From NCBI GenBank assembly GCA_001657295.1, contig LYSW01000009.1, forward strand, positions 1 to 64,000: a DNA stretch of 64,000 nt, read 5' to 3'. Shown here piece by piece: positions 6,844 to 41,870 of this stretch; position 1 is the stretch's first letter; every line of letters starts with the position of its first letter. Both the position numbers and the translations under genes were made by a program. The notes below the pieces were generated by a model that was given only the letters and a program-made list of their open reading frames with translations, did no database searches and was not told the origin of the DNA. The DNA is from Oceanicaulis sp. BBD 1991-10. Lineage in GTDB: Bacteria > Pseudomonadota > Alphaproteobacteria > Caulobacterales > Maricaulaceae.

Positions 6844-7683
6844 ATGGCTGACGCGCCCGCCGCCAAAATGACCGTCACCGGCAATCTGCCGCTCTACAAG
6901 TCGCCGGAAGCGATCAATCTCCAGGCGCATGCGGGCAAGGGTCTGAAATGGTCCGACCGTCCGTTTGAATTCCTTGCGGAGACCCATTTCGTGCCGGTCA
7001 CGCTGGGCGAGTTCGGCGTCACCTCCGCGCAGTATCCGATCATCTTCCTGGGCGACCAGAAGACGCCGGTGGCGGCCATGGGGCTGACGGCGGGTCAGAA
7101 TCTGTTCGTCGACCCGGAAACCGGCCAGTTTGAACCGCATGGCTATCTTCCCGGCTATGTCCGCCGCTACCCCTTCGTGGCCGCGTCTCATGCTGAGGAC
7201 CAGGACAAATTCACCGTCTGCGTGGACACCGGCTCCTATCTGTATTCCGACAATCCGGACGAGCCCTTCTTCAACGACAAGGGCGAAGCCAGCCCCTTCC
7301 TGGACCGGGCGATCGATTTCGTGCGCCGCTTTGAAGCCGACGTCCAGCAGACCCGCGATTTCGTCGCCCGTCTCGAAGAGCTGGAATTGTTCGACAGCCA
7401 GCAGGCGACTTTCCAGCCGCGCGATGCGCAGGGTCAGCCGCAGGGCGACCCGCAGGTGATCGCCAGCTATCAGGCCGTTTCCGGCGAAAAGCTGAAGGAA
7501 GTCGAGCCCAAAGTGCTCGCCGAGCTGCGCGACAACACCTATCTGGGCGCGATCTACTCGCACATGCTGTCCATGAACCGCTGGGAAGCGCTGATCAGCC
7601 GGGCGGCCCAGCGCAATAATCCGGGCGCCGCGCAGCAGCAGCCGGTGGCGAATATGGCTCCGCCGCCCGCCCCGGAAGCCTGA
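6844..7683 (+). CDS. SapC family protein
   Basis: Encodes 279 residues matching the SapC family as I know it: L-P-L-Y near the N-terminus, F-x-P-V-T-L-G-E-F, Y-P-I-I-F, G-Y-L-P-G-Y-V-R-R-Y-P-F and a run of D-R-A-I-D-F-V before an acidic helix. There is no signal peptide. In Campylobacter SapC is encoded near S-layer genes; in alphaproteobacteria the role is unclear. The C-terminal tail is Ala/Gln/Pro-rich and probably disordered. GGGGGAAA precedes the start. The gene is monocistronic, with a terminator right after it. Confidence 0.8.
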   Translation: MADAPAAKMTVTGNLPLYKSPEAINLQAHAGKGLKWSDRPFEFLAETHFVPVTLGEFGVTSAQYPIIFLGDQKTPVAAMGLTAGQNLFVDPETGQFEPHGYLPGYVRRYPFVAASHAEDQDKFTVCVDTGSYLYSDNPDEPFFNDKGEASPFLDRAIDFVRRFEADVQQTRDFVARLEELELFDSQQATFQPRDAQGQPQGDPQVIASYQAVSGEKLKEVEPKVLAELRDNTYLGAIYSHMLSMNRWEALISRAAQRNNPGAAQQQPVANMAPPPAPEA

Positions 7684-33929: not shown

Positions 33930-35483
33930 CTAACCAACGATTTCGTCTGCGAGCAGCTCCGACTCAACATCTGCCGGCGCACTAGAGTACAGCGACGCCA
34001 AAGACGTAGCAGTCAGAATAGGCGCCGACCGCATCTTTTCCTTTGCAAGCTTATCTGAAACGTCAATTTCATTAAATCGGTTCATGTGCTTCCGCAGGTG
34101 AGCGTAGCACCCAATGTCAATCGCAAAAGCCTGATAGGTGCCCTCTTGCGATTTATGAGTAAGAGCATTCGCGCAATTGTGTACAATTCGATAATCAAGT
34201 AACCTATAGAAAAGTGCTCGCCAGGCGTCGTCTTCTTTAAGCATGCGCTCTTCGATAAGGAAGATATTAGTCTTCTTGTCTAAACAAAAGCGCCATATAG
34301 TATAAATCCCGCGAATCAAGTCATTTTGCTCGTCGTATCTTGAATCATGCTTGAGCTCTTCAATTCGGCGCTCAAAGTTAGCTTTGCTCAGAATTCTAAC
34401 TTCGTCTTTGCCAATCTTGCCTCCGTCCTTTGCACCCACGTCGTTTAGAATCTCGAGAAATAAAGACAAAATATCCCTTGGCACGCCGCCTCCAGCCATG
34501 ACAAGGCGCGCGAACCCTTCCCCTTTGAAAAGCGAGTCGAGTTCTTCCCGTGTCATGTCTGCCTTCTCAGCGAATCGATACAAAATTTGACGATTTTGTC
34601 GCTCAGTCCTAGAGAAGTCGCCAAATGAATAATCTATGCTGATCGGCTGGTAGTCGTGCCGCTCTTGGGCTCCAATTGGTTGGCCCTCGCGGTCAGCATA
34701 GAGGGTTGAGGCATGTCTGAGAGTTGCAATTTTAAAGAATAGTGGCAAATCTTTGCATAATCGATGTATATAATCAACCACGAATGCTTGATCACTCTTT
34801 CTCAAGTGATATAAATCGTCGATTTGAATAAATATTGTTTTTACTTTTTTGCTTTGCTCAAAAAAGATTCGAATTCTTTCTTTCAGTCTAGGTAGCCATG
34901 TGTCCAGTCGTTGGAGCTTTTCATGGTGTAGTTCATATGACTTTTCGATTTCTGATGACGTTGCACGTTGGCTCTCGATAGAGGCGCCGATCGCCGCCCC
35001 GGAAGCGCTTAGCTCGCCTTTGGCTCCGGTCGAAATCTGTGCTTCCTGGGCCGAACGCTCTCGCACGATCTCTGACCTCTGATCGGCTTCTTTAGTCATT
35101 TGATCCAAGTCACTAATTATTGAATTCAGGCCCTCCTTTATATTTTTCTTTCGCCCAAACCAGCCAGTCTGATGTTTTTCCATTTCTCTAAATAGAGAGG
35201 CCAGTATTTCAATAAGCACGTTTGGAAACGAGTGCTGCTTGAAATCTTCGCAGTTTAAGTATACAATCTTGATCTCTTCTGGAGCGTTTTCTGAAGATTT
35301 ATGTAGTAGTAGTGTTTTTCCGCAACCGCGTCGGGCAAATATAGCGTGATTTTGGCGTGCGAGTGCATCATTAAGAGCGTCGCCGACGTCAACATACTCT
35401 ATGCGACCGCTTCCAATTTGGACGCGAAGATTCTCCTGGATTACGCGCCTGAGGGCAGAAAGCTTCTGAGGGTCTACTGACAT
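33930..35483 (-). CDS. AT-rich, horizontally acquired AAA/ORC-CDC6-like P-loop ATPase
   Basis: Encodes 517 residues. Walker A is A-R-R-G-C-G-K-T at residues 50-57; a Walker B-like strand reads I-F-I-Q-I-D-D-L-Y-H-L, and a sensor-like A-T-L-R-H follows. A long helical insertion (about 125-210) separates them, and the C-terminus looks like a winged helix. This resembles ORC/CDC6-type ATPases found in defence islands, but no nuclease or other effector domain is seen. Base composition is far more AT-rich than all neighbours. The ATG at 35483 is the first in frame; an upstream TTG would run into the preceding gene. The stop is only 3 nt from the convergent HAD stop. Confidence 0.7.
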   Translation of the reverse strand: MSVDPQKLSALRRVIQENLRVQIGSGRIEYVDVGDALNDALARQNHAIFARRGCGKTLLLHKSSENAPEEIKIVYLNCEDFKQHSFPNVLIEILASLFREMEKHQTGWFGRKKNIKEGLNSIISDLDQMTKEADQRSEIVRERSAQEAQISTGAKGELSASGAAIGASIESQRATSSEIEKSYELHHEKLQRLDTWLPRLKERIRIFFEQSKKVKTIFIQIDDLYHLRKSDQAFVVDYIHRLCKDLPLFFKIATLRHASTLYADREGQPIGAQERHDYQPISIDYSFGDFSRTERQNRQILYRFAEKADMTREELDSLFKGEGFARLVMAGGGVPRDILSLFLEILNDVGAKDGGKIGKDEVRILSKANFERRIEELKHDSRYDEQNDLIRGIYTIWRFCLDKKTNIFLIEERMLKEDDAWRALFYRLLDYRIVHNCANALTHKSQEGTYQAFAIDIGCYAHLRKHMNRFNEIDVSDKLAKEKMRSAPILTATSLASLYSSAPADVESELLADEIVG

Positions 35484-35560
35484 TAACTGTTCCAGAGCAT
35501 CTACAATTTGATTCCAGCTTGAATTGTAGTGGGAATTGTATTGGGTGCAATGTCCGGGTG

Positions 35561-36271: not shown

Positions 36272-36424
36272 GGCGGGGCTCCTGCAAACAAGTTCGACGA
36301 AAGCGTTCCCGCCCTTGTCATCATGCGGCGATGGCGAAATTGAGGTCGGCTCGCCGGGCGGCCGGTTTGCGCCTGTCGGCGTCGTTTCGCCAGCGGGCGG
36401 GCGATCAAGGCGCGGCCGCAGATT

Positions 36425-36490
36425 TCTGCTTTTCAGAGATTATTATAAACCTTAAGGTGTTTTCGCTCACGATAAATATCTTATTGGGAG
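36425..36490 (+). promoter_or_regulatory. AT-rich promoter region of the peptide operon
   Basis: A sharply AT-rich stretch (TTATTATAAACC near 36441 and GATAAATATC near 36471) in otherwise GC-rich DNA lies 35-100 nt upstream of the small peptide gene at 36524. Exact -35/-10 boxes cannot be fixed by eye. Confidence 0.4.
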
Positions 36491-36523
36491 TGTAGACAAC
36501 AACCAATCCGCTGGGAGAGCTCC

Positions 36524-36688
36524 ATGGCTGATAACGCAAAACCTACCCCGGAAGAGCTGCTTGAGCAGCTCAAAAAGGAAGGCATCCACTCGCTCGAAGA
36601 CCTCGCGAAGGTCGCGTCGGAGAAAATCGGCGCCGCGTCGACGGCTGAATCCGTCTTCATCACGCCGCACTTCGTCGGCAGCCACTAA
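36524..36688 (+). CDS. 54-residue peptide, candidate RiPP precursor
   Basis: The start ATG at 36524 has GGGAGAG a few nucleotides upstream. The N-terminal part (7-36) is a charged amphipathic helix with E-E-L-L-E-Q-L-K-K-E-G and H-S-L-E-D-L-A-K-V-A, as in leader peptides. After a G-A-A-S segment the C-terminal part is unlike it: S-V-F-I-T-P-H-F-V-G-S-H, rich in Ser/Thr/His/Phe and ending in His. There is no signal peptide or double-Gly site of the GG type. Three downstream genes (two DUF6895-like proteins and a dioxygenase) form a tight operon, so I infer that this is a modified peptide precursor. Alternatively it could be a small regulatory subunit. Confidence 0.65.
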   Translation: MADNAKPTPEELLEQLKKEGIHSLEDLAKVASEKIGAASTAESVFITPHFVGSH

Positions 36689-36697
36689 CCGTAAAGC

Positions 36698-36730
36698 GAT
36701 CCTTCCGGTCATGTATCGACCGGAAGGATC
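36698..36730 (+). promoter_or_regulatory. Perfect intercistronic hairpin after the peptide gene
   Basis: GATCCTTCCGGTC is repeated as an exact inverted copy after a 7-nt loop, giving a 13-bp stem, 10 nt after the peptide stop. There is no T-run. Such hairpins downstream of precursor genes commonly stabilise or attenuate the transcript so that the precursor outnumbers its enzymes. Confidence 0.7.
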
Positions 36731-36749
36731 GCCTTGCCGTGTCTTTGTG

Positions 36750-37691
36750 ATGGATTGCTCACTTCAGGACACAGACACCCTGGCGTCGATGCAAGACGCC
36801 ATATTGGCGCGCTGCGCCGATTGGGTGATCGCCAATCTTGCGGCGTTCTCGCCGCCGACCCGGCGTGAAGACGAGGCCTGCGGCGATCCCGGACTCGGTC
36901 CCAAGCGCAAAGCCCTCGGCGAGCTCTGCGTCGCCTTCGATGTCCTGCAGCTTTACGCCGCCCGCCGATTGCCTGACGCCAGGGATGCGATCCTTGACTG
37001 GATCACCGCGCAGACGAAAGCCCCATATTTCTTTGAGCACATGTATCGGAAGCCTGAGAGCTTTGCGTTCTACAATTCGGTCCACGCGTCTTTGCGCAAG
37101 GCCGGCCGGCGCCAGGCCGAGATCGAGCATTGGTTGAAGCTTCAATGCGCCGGCGGTCTTTTGGAATATATTGAACGCACCCCCTGGCAGACGATCGCAA
37201 CCAAGTTCGGGCTGGAGCAATCGGGCTTGCCGGACGCCCTGCCGCCTTACCCTGAACTCGTCGCGCGCTCGATTGTCGCCCGCTTTCCCTACCTGTCGCA
37301 GGCGCGGGAGATGGATATTTACGCCCTGACGCATGTCATCATGTTCACGACGAATTTCGGTGCCCGGCCGTTCGACGACCGCTATCGCGCCGCCATGGCT
37401 GAAACGGTCCTGCATTTAATCTTGATGTCGATTATCCGCGGCGACGCCGATATCGTCGGCGAGCTGTTGATTTGCGCGCTTTGCCTTAATGTTTCGGAAG
37501 ACTGGCGCGTCGCCGAAGGCTGGCGCTTCCTGTATGGCGCGCTGCACGCTACCGGCGCGATCCTCGACCATCGCTATGTGGCCGGCGAGCGTTTGGACGA
37601 TTCCCCTTTCGAGCCGTTTTTCGCATCGAATTATCACCCCACGCTGGTGGCCTTGATGGCCGCCTGTCTGGCCGTGGCGAGGCGGGCATGA
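36750..37691 (+). CDS. Helical protein resembling DUF6895, peptide-operon protein 1
   Basis: Encodes 313 residues, nearly all helical, without signal peptide or metal motif. The N-terminal C-A-D-W-V-I-A-N-L-A-A-F and K-R-K-A-L-G-E-L-C-V-A-F-D pattern resembles DUF6895 proteins as I remember them; this was not checked. Starting at 36750 keeps the hairpin at 36698-36730 outside the gene; an ATG inside the hairpin loop (36711) is an alternative. It overlaps the next gene by 4 nt (ATGA). The enzymatic role is unknown. Confidence 0.6.
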   Translation: MDCSLQDTDTLASMQDAILARCADWVIANLAAFSPPTRREDEACGDPGLGPKRKALGELCVAFDVLQLYAARRLPDARDAILDWITAQTKAPYFFEHMYRKPESFAFYNSVHASLRKAGRRQAEIEHWLKLQCAGGLLEYIERTPWQTIATKFGLEQSGLPDALPPYPELVARSIVARFPYLSQAREMDIYALTHVIMFTTNFGARPFDDRYRAAMAETVLHLILMSIIRGDADIVGELLICALCLNVSEDWRVAEGWRFLYGALHATGAILDHRYVAGERLDDSPFEPFFASNYHPTLVALMAACLAVARRA

Positions 37692-38548
37692 GCGAGCCGG
37701 CGTCGGCCGGTCCTGTCGGCGAGGTGCATGACGCCTTGCGCCGGCTGGCGCAGCGTCCGGACGCGCTCTTAACGCCCGATCTGTCCAATGCCGTTTGTAT
37801 TCTGGGGCTGTGTTGCGATCAGGCGGCGCGCCTGGAAGACGCGGTCGCGGACTTGATCCGGGTGTTCGGGGCGTTGCTCGAAGACCGGCTTGCCAAGGAT
37901 GACCCGGCGCCACAGGAGTTCTGGTCGCTGCTTATGGCTGCGCATTATCTGCAAGCGCTCTCAGGAAAGATCCCGCCGGCGCTCAATAAACGCGTGGCGC
38001 TGATCGCCGCCGCCCTTCCGGCGGATCGTGTGGAGGACAGCTATGCGGTCTATCTGCAGATCCTAGTCATGATGGGCCGCATTGAGCGCCGTGCGGCGCT
38101 TGCCTGGAATGCGCCGCCGCCACGTGAGTTTAGTGCGGTGCTGACGTCTAAGGAGCGGGCGGGCGATCTGCTGCAAAGCCTGGAGGCCGCGACCCGTTTC
38201 GGATGCGAGCGCCCCTTGGACGTCCAGGACGCGCTGGTCGCCATAATCCAGGCGATCATGTCGACCCGCATCAGCGCGGACAATATCGAGGAGGCCGCCC
38301 GCCTGGTGCGGATCGCCGCCCATCTTGACCCCGCCCGCAACCGATGTGTCGAAGAGGCCTACGCCTTCCTGCTCGCGCAGCAAAATTATGACGGGCTTTG
38401 GGGGCGCGACCCCAAGGGCGCCTTGAGCCGGCGCCTGCGCGAGACACGGGCCGTGCTTTGGATGGCTGCGGAATATCAAGACCCTGGCTTCAGGGCGTTG
38501 CGCGATGCAGGTCGATATTTTTCCAGGATCAATCATGCTGACGGATAA
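37688..38548 (+). CDS. Helical protein, peptide-operon protein 2
   Basis: Encodes 286 residues, all-helical like its upstream neighbour and of similar length, suggesting divergent paralogues or two subunits. Blocks such as V-E-E-A-Y-A-F-L-L-A-Q-Q-N-Y-D-G-L-W-G (about residues 220-240) recall alpha/alpha-toroid proteins of the terpene-cyclase/prenyltransferase type, but no D-x-D-D motif is present. Translation is coupled on both sides (ATGA overlap upstream; 14-nt overlap with the dioxygenase gene downstream). Function unknown. Confidence 0.6.
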   Translation: MSEPASAGPVGEVHDALRRLAQRPDALLTPDLSNAVCILGLCCDQAARLEDAVADLIRVFGALLEDRLAKDDPAPQEFWSLLMAAHYLQALSGKIPPALNKRVALIAAALPADRVEDSYAVYLQILVMMGRIERRAALAWNAPPPREFSAVLTSKERAGDLLQSLEAATRFGCERPLDVQDALVAIIQAIMSTRISADNIEEAARLVRIAAHLDPARNRCVEEAYAFLLAQQNYDGLWGRDPKGALSRRLRETRAVLWMAAEYQDPGFRALRDAGRYFSRINHADG

Positions 38549-39326
38549 GCAGATCGACGCGTTCAAGGAAGACGGCTTCCTGATCCTGAAAGACTATTTC
38601 AGCGAGGCGTGCGTCGCGCACTGGAGGGAAGCCTGCGCAAGACGATATGGCATCGGCTCCATCGATGATTGGAGGCCGGGCTATACGCCGCCGGGCGGGA
38701 TCAGGCCCCTTCAAATCGAGCCCCGCTTCCAACTCGCACGCTATGGCGATTTTCCCGGCATTCTGGCTCAGCTGGGCAGCGGCGCTGAGGACGGGCGGCC
38801 CAACCTGATCTTCAAATATCCCAACACCGAGCCGGGCGCGCACCGGCTGCCCGAGACCGGGCATGTCGACCTCATCTTTCAGGGCAGCCGCCGGCGCTTC
38901 ACGCTGGGCGCGCTGTCCTATCTCAATGAGACCGTTCCGGGCCAGGGCGCAACCTGCGCATGGCCGGGCTCGCACAAGCCGGTCTGGCGCTTCTTCCAGG
39001 CCAATCCGGACGCATACGCGGTCGGCTTTGATAATGATCTACGCCACAAAATGGAAAGCCGGCTTAATGCGTTCACCGATTATGGCGCGCCTGTGGAGCT
39101 GACCGCGTCTCCCCGCGATCTGATCTTGTGGCATGCCTTCCTCTTGCACGAGGCCTCGCCGAATGCGGGGACCCGGCCCCGCCTGGCGGTCTTTCACCGC
39201 TTCGGTCAGGCGCTGCGCGAGGGCGAACCGTTTGAGACCTTTGGCGATATCTGGGAGCATTGGGCGATCGGCGGCGGCGAAAAGGCGCGAGGGCCGGCGG
39301 CCTGCGCGCCGGCCGGGCCGCGTTAA
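38535..39326 (+). CDS. PhyH-type Fe(II)/2-oxoglutarate dioxygenase
   Basis: Encodes 263 residues. The phytanoyl-CoA dioxygenase fold is recognised by the N-terminal F-K-E-D-G-F-L-I-L-K-D-Y-F, the metal ligands H110 and D112 (G-H-V-D) and the distal L-L-H-E-A-S-P-N with H205, followed by R214 for 2-oxoglutarate. It should hydroxylate an unactivated carbon; next to the peptide gene the substrate may be the modified peptide. The start at 38535 has AGGA upstream and overlaps the previous gene. The 3' end overlaps the convergent tetR by 4 nt. Confidence 0.82.
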   Translation: MLTDKQIDAFKEDGFLILKDYFSEACVAHWREACARRYGIGSIDDWRPGYTPPGGIRPLQIEPRFQLARYGDFPGILAQLGSGAEDGRPNLIFKYPNTEPGAHRLPETGHVDLIFQGSRRRFTLGALSYLNETVPGQGATCAWPGSHKPVWRFFQANPDAYAVGFDNDLRHKMESRLNAFTDYGAPVELTASPRDLILWHAFLLHEASPNAGTRPRLAVFHRFGQALREGEPFETFGDIWEHWAIGGGEKARGPAACAPAGPR

Positions 39327-39889
39327 ACCAGTCTGATCCGCGCTTTAAGCTGCGCGGTCGCGAGGTCGAACTTCAACACATCGCCGGCGGCGCGTGCGAT
39401 CAGCTGGGCGCCTTCCACCAGCGCCAGCGCGGCGGCGGCCTCCAGGCCGGGCTCCTCCACACCCTTTATCGAGCCATCGGACCGAGCCAGCTTGAAGGTG
39501 GCGGTCAGCCAATCCAGGCTCGCGGCGTTGAACGCGTCCAGCTCGGCCAGCGTATCGGGGTTCAGGCTGTCGCGCCCGGCGCTGAGCGCGACGCACAGAC
39601 AGACCTGCTCGCCGCCCGCCAGCGCCTCGCGATAAAGATCAAGATATTCCGCCAGCCGGTCGGCGGCGCGGGTGCGCCGCGCCGCGACCGCGCCGAGCTT
39701 GCCGACCACCTGGCCGCGATAGCGGGCGGTCAGCGCCAGACCCAATTCGGCCTTGGAGGGAAAATGGTGGTGGATGCTGGCCTTGCGGATGCCGATCTCC
39801 GCTTCCAGATCGCCATAGCTGAAGCCGTCAAACCCGCGCGCGCGCACCAGGCGTTCGGCGGCGTCCAGGATTTGCTGTTTGCGGTCCAT
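39323..39889 (-). CDS. TetR/AcrR family regulator of the glutaredoxin/cupin regulon
   Basis: Encodes 188 residues beginning M-D-R-K-Q-Q-I-L-D-A-A-E-R-L-V. The HTH is clear (F-S-Y-G-D-L-E-A-E-I-G-I-R-K-A-S-I-H-H-H-F-P-S-K). One central region has C-L-C-V-A, and a redox-sensitive cysteine is possible. It is the last gene of the operon grx - disulfide reductase - tetR. Two matching palindromes in the divergent region 41738-41856 are its probable operators. Confidence 0.85.
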   Translation of the reverse strand: MDRKQQILDAAERLVRARGFDGFSYGDLEAEIGIRKASIHHHFPSKAELGLALTARYRGQVVGKLGAVAARRTRAADRLAEYLDLYREALAGGEQVCLCVALSAGRDSLNPDTLAELDAFNAASLDWLTATFKLARSDGSIKGVEEPGLEAAAALALVEGAQLIARAAGDVLKFDLATAQLKARIRLV

Positions 39890-39924
39890 ATCCGGCTCCG
39901 TCTTTTGGGGGCGAACCCGGCGCG

Positions 39925-41358
39925 CTAAGCGCCGGGGCCGCAATCGATGCAGCGCAGAGGCGGGTTGGGGCCGAAGCCAAGCTTGGCGTTGAGGTCCCGA
40001 AGGGCGGTGCGCACGCCTTCCTCCACCACCGGATGGTAGAAGGGATTTTGCAGCGTGCGCGAGACGCTGTGTCCCGCGTCGATCTGCCAGGCGAGCAGGT
40101 GCGCCAGATGCTCGGCGTCCGGGCCGATCATCTCAGCGCCCAGGAGTTGGCCGGTCCCGGCTTCGCCATAGACGCGCAACAGGCCCTGATTGCGTCCGGT
40201 CACCCGCGCGCGGCCCTGGTCTTCGAAGGAGACCTCGCCGATCTCGAACTCGGCGCCGGCGTCGACCAGCGCCTGATAGCTCTGTCCGGCCAGGCCGATC
40301 TGAGGATCGGTGAAGACCACGCCCAGCCCGGTCCGCCGGCCGCGCCGATAGGCGTCGGGCAGGCGCGCGGCGTTCTCCCCGGCCAGCCGGCCTTCATCGG
40401 CCGCCTCGTGCAGGATGGGCAGATCATTGGAGGCGTCGCCGGCGATGAAGATGTGCGTGTCGCCGACCCGGGCGGACAGCGGATCATAATCGGGCGCGCC
40501 GTTGGGGTTCAGCGTCAAGGAGGTGCTCTCAAGACCGATCCGGTCCAGATTGGACCGGCGCCCCGCCGCGCTCAGCAGGTAGTCGAAGCGGGATTCGCCG
40601 CGGTCCTCGCCGTCCGCCCAGCGCACCACGACGTCGTCGCCCTCACGCGTGATCTGAGTGTCCGCGCGCCAATGGATCGGAAACTCCGCCGCGAAGCTTT
40701 TCGCCGCATAGGCTTTAACACTCGGATCGCTGAGCGGCCCCACGAAGCCGTCCCGCCCGAACAGCTCCACCCTCACGCCCAGCCGATGCAGCGCCTGGCC
40801 CAGCTCCAGGCCGATCACCCCGCCGCCGAACACGGCGACGGAGCGCGGCAGATCATCGAGGTCGAACACGTCGTCATTGATGATCAAACGGTCCCCGGCC
40901 GCCTTGAAGGCCGCCGGCGCATTGGGGCGCGATCCCACGGCGATGACGATGGCGCGCGCCGTGATGTTTCGGCCGGAGCCGAGCTTCAGCGTGTGATCAT
41001 CAACGAATTGCGCGTGCTCGCGGATGACATGGCCGGGCTCGAATTCGTCGACCGCGTCCAGAACAAAGCCGACAAAGCGGTCGCGCTCCGCCTTCACCCG
41101 CGCCATGACGGCCTTGCCGTCAACGGTCGGGGCCGGCGTGTTCACGCCGAATTGCGCGGTGGTTTTGGCGGCGTGCGCCGCGTCGGCGGCGGCGATCAAA
41201 AGCTTGGACGGCATGCAGCCGACCCGTGCGCAGGTCGTGCCCAGCGGTCCGCCGTCGATAAGGGCGATCCGGTCGGTGTATTTGCGGGCTTCGCGATAGG
41301 CGCTCATTCCGGCGGTGCCGGCGCCCAGAATGGCGACATCCACGTCATAGTCGGCCAT
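39925..41358 (-). CDS. Dihydrolipoyl dehydrogenase-like flavoprotein disulfide reductase
   Basis: Encodes 477 residues. It has an FAD-binding motif V-A-I-L-G-A-G-T-A-G-M-S, the redox-active pair C-A-R-V-G-C-M-P-S-K, an NAD(P)-binding V-A-V-F-G-G-G-V-I-G-L-E, a second FAD motif F-I-A-G-D-A-S and the dimer-interface active-site H-P-V-V-E-E. Unlike lipoamide dehydrogenase of dehydrogenase complexes it stands with glutaredoxin and TetR genes, so a detoxifying or glutathione-like reductase role is likelier. It ends with a C-I-D-C motif, an extra cysteine pair near the C-terminus as in mercuric-reductase relatives. Confidence 0.85.
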   Translation of the reverse strand: MADYDVDVAILGAGTAGMSAYREARKYTDRIALIDGGPLGTTCARVGCMPSKLLIAAADAAHAAKTTAQFGVNTPAPTVDGKAVMARVKAERDRFVGFVLDAVDEFEPGHVIREHAQFVDDHTLKLGSGRNITARAIVIAVGSRPNAPAAFKAAGDRLIINDDVFDLDDLPRSVAVFGGGVIGLELGQALHRLGVRVELFGRDGFVGPLSDPSVKAYAAKSFAAEFPIHWRADTQITREGDDVVVRWADGEDRGESRFDYLLSAAGRRSNLDRIGLESTSLTLNPNGAPDYDPLSARVGDTHIFIAGDASNDLPILHEAADEGRLAGENAARLPDAYRRGRRTGLGVVFTDPQIGLAGQSYQALVDAGAEFEIGEVSFEDQGRARVTGRNQGLLRVYGEAGTGQLLGAEMIGPDAEHLAHLLAWQIDAGHSVSRTLQNPFYHPVVEEGVRTALRDLNAKLGFGPNPPLRCIDCGPGA

Positions 41359-41416
41359 GGCCGATCCTTTCTGCTCGCTCAAGCCTTACGGTCTGAGACT
41401 GCGTCTGCGCCGCCCG

Positions 41417-41686
41417 TCAGCGGGCGGGCTCCAGATTGAGAAGCGGCGCCAGGGCGCCGGAGCGGTCCAGCGCCGCCAGGTCATCGAAGCCGCCATGAGG
41501 CTGGCCGTCGATCAGGATTTGCGGCACGGTCTGGCCGCCTTGGGAGCGGCGCACCATCTCGTCACGAAGCTCAGGGCGTTCGACCAGATCGTATTCGACA
41601 TAATCAACGCCGTACCCATCGAGCAGCGCCTTCGCGCGGTGACAATAGGGGCAGTAATTCTTGGTGTAGATCTGCACTTTGGACAT
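41417..41686 (-). CDS. grxC: Glutaredoxin 3
   Basis: Encodes 89 residues with the active site C-P-Y-C, the cis-Pro segment Q-T-V-P-Q-I-L-I-D and G-G-F-D-D-L, matching GrxC in length and sequence. It reduces disulfides with glutathione. First gene of the minus-strand operon with the disulfide reductase and TetR genes. The start at 41686 is preceded by GGAGGGA. Confidence 0.92.
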   Translation of the reverse strand: MSKVQIYTKNYCPYCHRAKALLDGYGVDYVEYDLVERPELRDEMVRRSQGGQTVPQILIDGQPHGGFDDLAALDRSGALAPLLNLEPAR

Positions 41687-41737
41687 GGTGTCCCTCCATT
41701 GCCGGGGACCGCGGCGGCGGTCGCATTTCCGTGTTGA

Positions 41738-41753
41738 TCTACCAAGTGGTAGA
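41738..41753. promoter_or_regulatory. Palindromic operator 1 (grx side)
   Basis: TCTACCAAGTGGTAGA: perfect 7-bp arms around a 2-nt centre. It lies 52 nt upstream of the grxC start and is almost identical to the site at 41841-41856. Confidence 0.8.
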
Positions 41754-41840
41754 CGTGACTCTAAAATCAAGGTCGGTTGATCTCAAGATCTTCACGTATG
41801 CGTGAACCGCGCAAGCTTGAATTCCGGCATCGCAACGATA

Positions 41841-41856
41841 TCTACCAACTGGTAGA
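41841..41856. promoter_or_regulatory. Palindromic operator 2 (cupin side)
   Basis: TCTACCAACTGGTAGA: the same arms as operator 1 with a different centre, 14 nt before the cupin start. Centre-to-centre spacing of 103 nt is close to ten helical turns, so looping or independent control of both promoters is possible. Confidence 0.8.
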
Positions 41857-41870
41857 CACGGGAGCTGCTC

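Follow-up and report, generated by a model that had tools for sequence, protein, structure and literature searches.

What is made by a cassette in which a gene for a 54-residue peptide is followed by genes for two helical proteins and a dioxygenase? The cassette lies within the first 64,000 nucleotides of contig LYSW01000009.1 of Oceanicaulis sp. BBD 1991-10, a stretch that we refer to as the window. A sequence-only reading of the window had picked out the peptide, a perfect hairpin, the two helical proteins and a PhyH-type dioxygenase, and had proposed a maturation unit for a ribosomally synthesized and post-translationally modified peptide (RiPP). All of these features are present (Table 1). 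Comparison with other loci supports a RiPP-type maturation unit of the peptide and the two helical proteins, P2 and P3, because they co-occur in unrelated phyla, the two helical proteins occur fused, and the peptides share a leader. With moderate confidence, we interpret the cassette as a stand-alone RiPP-type system whose P2, a probable peptide epimerase, modifies the C-terminus of the peptide together with an inactive partner, P3, the dioxygenase being an accessory.

Table 1. Features of the cassette and its surroundings, numbered from the first nucleotide of the window.
Feature	Position	Strand	Basis and remarks
Precursor-like peptide ORF (open reading frame), 54 residues	36524-36688	+	Leader-like helix at about residues 10-35, core-like end at about residues 42-54
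Core-like C-terminus, ESVFITPHFVGSH	36647-36685	+	MAFFT alignment with the C-termini of other precursors; putative boundary
15-bp perfect hairpin between peptide and P2 genes	36696-36732	+	Folding
P2, DUF6895 protein	36750-37691	+	Pfam; alternative in-frame starts at 36711 and 36789
P3, second barrel-type protein, diverged P2 paralogue	37688-38548	+	Profile comparison
PhyH-type Fe(II)/2-oxoglutarate dioxygenase, accessory	38535-39326	+	Pfam; overlaps P3
P-loop ATPase gene	33933-35486	-	Between converging HAD and SIMPL genes
Segment missing in a same-genus relative	36272-41870		Comparison with G002 (locus L052)

The peptide was recognized as precursor-like by means of a profile whose members, twelve peptides or repeats found upstream of DUF6895 genes, all come from other loci. 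The window peptide ranks first of the 611 ORFs in the window (E 0.0084; next ORF 0.034) and outscores all 2000 shuffles of its own sequence. When the profile was rebuilt with one lineage left out at a time, all 9 loci tested, which represent 8 lineages, had as their top ORF a precursor-like one upstream of DUF6895, with 101 to 611 ORFs ranked per locus and E-values from 3.5e-23 (L020) to 0.032 (L042). These loci are the window and those of Rhizobium (L017), Gilvimarinus (L018), G404 (L020), Geodermatophilus (L042), a Burkholderiales metagenome-assembled genome (L044), Pseudalkalibacillus (L048) and two Streptomycetaceae (L035, L047). Two tandem peptides take ranks 1 and 2 in Rhizobium. Two loci that had no part in the training, L031 (E 2.2e-10) and L087 from Streptomyces (E 1.9e-10), match the profile as well, and the matching ORF of L087 contains an annotated 68-residue gene. 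On the rank, the shuffles and the leave-out outcome, we rejected the reading of the peptide as a chance ORF. Among the Pfam, NCBIfam, PHROGs and PADLOC models, the window peptide has no match above a curated cut-off and no credible one (PADLOC gave one sub-credible match, E 0.054), and the related precursors scanned have none in Pfam or NCBIfam.

The precursors share the leader consensus L..L..SG(I/L)(V/I/L)(D/N)....(T/P)L..L, which takes the form LLEQLKKEGIHSLEDLAKVASEKIG in the window. Their C-termini follow a common aromatic, beta-strand-like pattern and end in FITPHFVGSH in the window, FIHSHFIYKHESK in L044, FVSPNYVYKGS and FISHNYVYKGS in L020, GPWYIYKE and GPWFVLKE in Gilvimarinus, GPWFVLAG in Rhizobium and GPWYAYH in L087. 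The anticipated combination of a conserved leader and a variable core holds between lineages but not within the Streptomycetaceae group with fused helical proteins, where the end of the peptide is conserved as well. Two full leader-core repeats are present in the precursors of L018 and L020. Duplicated or multi-core peptides beside enzymes are expected of a substrate and not of a subunit.

A gene-encoded precursor with a recognizable leader beside modifying enzymes, the arrangement by which a RiPP system is recognized, was found at 18 of 23 DUF6895 loci in Proteobacteria, Actinomycetota and Bacillota, a biased rate as the loci were collected by similarity. This count leaves out the sub-cut-off matches in G147, G135, G575, G591 and G684 (L027, L028, L032-L034), and seven DUF6902-type loci are counted apart. 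The opposite pattern named in the sequence-only reading, peptide homologues conserved over their full length and unlinked to the rest of the cassette, did not appear in the comparison of loci. At an E-value of 0.001, PF21836 (the DUF6895 family) is matched in 13 of the 398 genomes scanned in the phylum, 11 of which pass the cut-off, and in 9 of 385 in the class, 6 of which pass it; these counts include the source genome and DUF6902-type proteins. Near the source, P2-like matches occur in 2 of 61 genomes, the source genome and G033 with a DUF6902 protein, and among 137 genomes of the family P3 was found in the source genome alone. A contig profile search with P2 alone gave no match; a three-row alignment recovered 11 loci, including the already known Rhizobium and Gilvimarinus ones (L041 is L017 and L045 is L018). 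Family searches around G165 and G242 returned only those genomes themselves (1/151 and 1/120), and no closer relatives of the window cassette were found in the genome searches.

Some loci carry additional genes. Just 5' of the two Rhizobium precursors are a C70/C39-like cysteine peptidase, perhaps a leader peptidase, and an unknown protein (L017, 4771-5989). An MFS protein is encoded near the members in L017 and an ABC/SpoIIM pair near those in L048. A different DUF6895 layout is seen on Streptomyces and Kitasatospora plasmids (L088, 5037-8892; L089; L090, 5611-8606), with a helper of 230-250 residues and a small peptide whose end is GLLLSPP- or GLLLSPK-like (L088, L090). L090 has one DUF6895 protein, and L088 and (by sequence) L089 have two; a serine hydrolase is annotated in L088 and L090.

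P2 is a full-length DUF6895 protein (E 2.6e-51; 175.2 bits against a cut-off of 23.8; positions 3-289 of 289), only 18-30% identical to its relatives. The family had been described as functionally uncharacterized in the sequence-only reading, a statement overtaken by an article that, by its title, describes a lasso-peptide epimerase from DUF6895 (Shi et al., ACS Catal. 2026, 16:1757, cited in PMC13352647). The predicted P2 model, made from 12 sequences, is nearly all helical, with a predicted local distance difference test score (pLDDT) of 87.1 and a predicted template modeling score of 0.88. The predicted fold of P2 is an (alpha/alpha)6 barrel. The model superimposes on squalene-hopene cyclase with a VIA Z of 18.0 (root-mean-square deviation (rmsd) 3.6 over 265 residues) and on cellobiose 2-epimerase with a VIA Z of 16.1 (rmsd 4.0 over 271 residues). 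Among the residues invariant in the 12 P2 sequences, seven of which are close Streptomycetaceae, are E58, Y191, H195, D234, E238, Y295 and H296 (counted from the ATG at 36750). In the model, the conserved polar residues all appear to lie on the second, inner helix of the helix pairs. P2 is probably the catalytic protein of the cassette.

The precursor, P2 and P3 could form a real unit in which the DUF6895 protein carries out cyclization, cleavage or another cofactor-free reaction and not epimerization. The (alpha/alpha)6 fold is also that of terpene cyclases, glycoside hydrolases and a polysaccharide lyase, and with P2 18-30% identical to its relatives, the lasso result concerns, by its title, another DUF6895 member. 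The same title, however, names peptide epimerization as the sole function that we found for the family, and AGE-type sugar epimerases also have this fold. We therefore regard a different chemistry as unlikely, while giving it more weight than any other account of the cassette as a whole that departs from ours.

P3 matches no Pfam or NCBIfam family over the cut-off. Profile comparison with hhalign aligns it to P2 over 151 columns (E 5.7e-6, probability 85.5). Leave-out profiles, which always retained Streptomycetaceae, rank P3 first in 6 of 6 lineages, with an E-value of 3.9e-16 for the window protein. The assignment is based on these profiles; phmmer matches of P3 to the fusions fall partly within the DUF6895 half, as paralogy predicts. 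P3 is present at 15 of the 18 precursor loci. It is a separate gene in the window, L017, L042, L044 and L048, and is fused to DUF6895 in ten loci, those of Gilvimarinus and nine Streptomycetaceae (L035-L040, L043, L046, L047). The model of a Streptomyces fusion has a pLDDT of 87.4 and 12 helices in the C-terminal P3 half (matching to the PDB used residues 3-309). By these comparisons, P3 is a distant, diverged paralogue of P2 and its conserved partner in the cassette. In an alignment read by eye, the window P3 has G, Q, E and R where P2 has Y191, H195, D234 and E238; Y295 and H296 fall outside the P2/P3 alignment. Since four of the conserved polar residues of P2 are replaced, P3 is presumably catalytically dead. 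The two helical proteins of similar length first described are thus both there and can be refined to distant paralogues, P2 with the conserved polar set and P3 without it.

P3 also matches the lasso B2 model below its threshold (E 0.012), and DUF6895 is tied to lasso modification by the title of Shi et al., so we considered a lasso-peptide cluster, intact or decayed. No protein in the genome exceeds the B2 cut-off, and the best site below it is P3 itself. Two Asn-synthase-type matches lie on other contigs (C21 and C52; the window is on C4), and hence no B2 and C pair was found beside the precursor. The annotated loci that we viewed name no lasso product. We rejected a lasso-peptide cluster on the missing B2 and the location of the Asn-synthase-type matches, and consider a decayed or incomplete one, a reading already weakened, very improbable.

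The genes of the cassette had been described as having overlapping starts and stops. This is correct for P2 and P3 (4 nt) and for P3 and PhyH (14 nt), but the peptide and P2 genes are apart, with the hairpin in between. The hairpin has 15 perfect pairs and a 7-nt loop and is highly stable (-35.0 kcal/mol, z -8.1; none of 200 shuffles is equally stable). Of eight other loci folded, three have stable structures (z of -3 or below) in the equivalent position: L045 (-6.2), L020 (-4.2) and L044 (-3.2, several stems). The hairpin would damp expression of the enzyme genes, possibly by limiting read-through, so that the 54-residue precursor is made in excess. The alternative P2 start at 36711 sits exactly in the hairpin loop, and the hairpin may also influence the start of P2 translation.

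The dioxygenase matches PF05721 (E 2.7e-8; 34.8 bits against a cut-off of 22) and has the reported iron triad HxD...H at H110, D112 and H205. No relatives of PhyH were found by tblastn at 31 other loci (best E 0.13 at 26 loci and 0.61 at 5), a set composed of DUF6895 and DUF6902 loci and two sub-cut-off loci (L027 and L028, among the 26). The overlapping start is thus its only link to the cassette, and its role is the least certain part of our interpretation. Relatives were found in 9 of 289 genomes of the class, the source genome included, the others at no more than 34% identity over stretches of at least 100 residues, and in three plasmid records (two Halomontanus and one Halorussus). PhyH could instead be unrelated to the peptide and merely be carried on the same transcript. 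The missing relatives at the other loci fit this view and the 14-nt overlap with P3 in the same direction speaks against it, and we regard the matter as evenly balanced.

A small-molecule pathway offers a further account of the four genes. The peptide would then be a small regulatory or structural subunit, and P2, P3 and PhyH would combine a terpene-cyclase-like function with a dioxygenase. In its favour are a 37-residue match of the P3 profile to squalene-hopene cyclase (E 5.4e-9) and the small-molecule substrates of many PhyH enzymes. This account does not, however, sit well with duplicated and multi-core peptides beside the enzymes, with stable RNA structure 3' of the peptide gene in several lineages or with a PhyH that is not conserved, and we consider it improbable.

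A sister family provides a parallel case. At seven loci (L019, L021-L025, L029), six from family f16 and L029 from the family of the window itself, DUF6902 is the best and DUF6895 the second Pfam match for all seven proteins. Six of the seven genes adjoin a peptide with 3-7 copies of a motif of the GEGTQFSTSSF, GDGVDMFTTSC or GDAVEAFTSWSG type (in L023 the repeat frame runs past the contig end). In L029, the ORF 5' of the DUF6902 gene (84 residues, 7310-7564) begins like a signal peptide and contains the motif KGDGASLMFTI once. Such repeats are more readily understood as substrates of an iterative enzyme than as subunits. An EamA transporter gene lies near DUF6902 in L019 and L025, and in L023 by sequence only. 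No adjacent P3 match was found at any of the seven loci, and no paper on DUF6902 was found in the open-access PubMed Central (PMC) literature searched.

In the RiPP-type mechanism that we propose, the helical N-terminal leader of the precursor would first be recognized by the P2/P3 pair. The inner helices of the predicted P2 barrel would hold the conserved Glu/Tyr/His/Asp/Glu/Tyr-His set. P2 would then work on the C-terminal core and, given the title on a DUF6895 epimerase and the anatomy of the cassette, would most probably invert the alpha-carbon of at least one residue by acid/base catalysis. P3, as a dead paralogue, may present the substrate, bind the leader or complete the active complex, a role that would explain why P2 and P3 form a single chain in Gilvimarinus and at nine Streptomycetaceae loci. 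PhyH may afterwards add a hydroxyl group to the product in this strain, and a protease and an exporter would be supplied from outside the cassette.

Several observations weigh against this interpretation. Nine of the 18 precursor-positive loci belong to one Streptomycetaceae group, so that the support comes from about ten lineages and not 18, and the precursor type is absent at 5 of the 23 DUF6895 loci (L026, L049, L088, L089, L090). The precursor match is weak by E-value in the window and in L042; the weight of the window match therefore rests on its rank, its position and the same outcome at other loci. P3 has no match at L020, L031 and L087 (about 1 kb downstream is covered in L031). Of the nine loci folded, four lack the hairpin (L041, L031, L035, L087) and L048 has a weak one (-2.0); in the window it is not listed by a terminator consensus scan, as no T-run follows. 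Foldseek found no match to the P2 model at an E-value of 0.001 or better. The epimerase function of DUF6895 comes from one title, and to our knowledge there is no product or activity for any member of the window type. Neither a protease nor a transporter was found among the four cassette genes and the eight flanking genes scanned, the rest of the genome not having been searched; that no transporter is adjacent had already been remarked on.

The genomic setting shows the cassette to be absent from a close relative. In G002, which is of the same genus, the gene order is HAD, SIMPL, ChrR cupin and amine oxidase, and the missing segment comprises the cassette together with TetR, pyridine-nucleotide oxidoreductase and glutaredoxin genes. 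This junction without the cassette is visible in one of the 12 SIMPL loci of relatives compared (L052). HAD and SIMPL genes are directly adjacent in 6 of the 12 (L051, L052, L053, L057, L059, L061); in the window they flank the P-loop ATPase gene, whose product is ORC-CDC6-like (E 3.1e-7) and has a weak PADLOC match to mads_8 (E 8.7e-5). A consensus scan of the locus gave no sigma-70 promoter. A phage or defence origin of the cassette was considered and rejected. A viral scan for cassette relatives found none, and PHROGs gave no match for the four cassette proteins.

What is new here is that an enzyme family only recently reported from lasso peptides forms the basis of a RiPP-type system that has a precursor family of its own and pairs an enzyme with a presumably inactive partner. 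A domain known from a single lasso report is thereby joined to a recognizable, searchable peptide family in Proteobacteria, Actinomycetota and Bacillota. Going further, we see an even chance that these loci represent a RiPP class undescribed in the sources searched. It would be defined by an (alpha/alpha)6-barrel enzyme and an inactive paralogue, paired or fused, a leader family of its own, and aromatic, beta-strand-like cores (GPWYxY, FVxxNYVYKG, FITPHFVGSH). The class would extend across phyla and at times be tailored by a hydroxylase, with the multi-core DUF6902 loci as a second branch. With a minimal unit of two or three genes, the system lends itself to a simple co-expression test. Should P2 prove to be a peptide epimerase, it would introduce D-residues by a route that needs neither radical SAM nor lanthipeptide chemistry, and the pairing of an enzyme with an inactive partner poses the clear question of how the leader is read.

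We found no description of the cassette in open-access PMC literature, a search that left subscription journals mostly outside. The closest systems share parts of it. DUF6902 systems have a sister family of DUF6895 and an adjacent small peptide, and differ in their GxGxxxFSTSSF-type cores, an EamA gene near some members and the missing adjacent P3. Squalene-hopene cyclase and AGE sugar epimerases share the predicted P2 fold (VIA Z 16-18) and a cyclase-like stretch in P3, but identity is about 10% and we claim no membership. The lasso-peptide epimerase MslH has a calcineurin-like fold, unlike the predicted helical barrel of P2. As described in PMC10406935, MslH is the metal-dependent epimerase of MS-271, and the likeness lies in a dedicated RiPP epimerase that works at the precursor C-terminus. 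Nearest of all is the DUF6895 lasso-peptide epimerase named in the title of Shi et al. (2026), which belongs to the same Pfam family as P2; the cassette described here differs in having no lasso B2 and in bringing its own precursor family, the partner P3 and PhyH.

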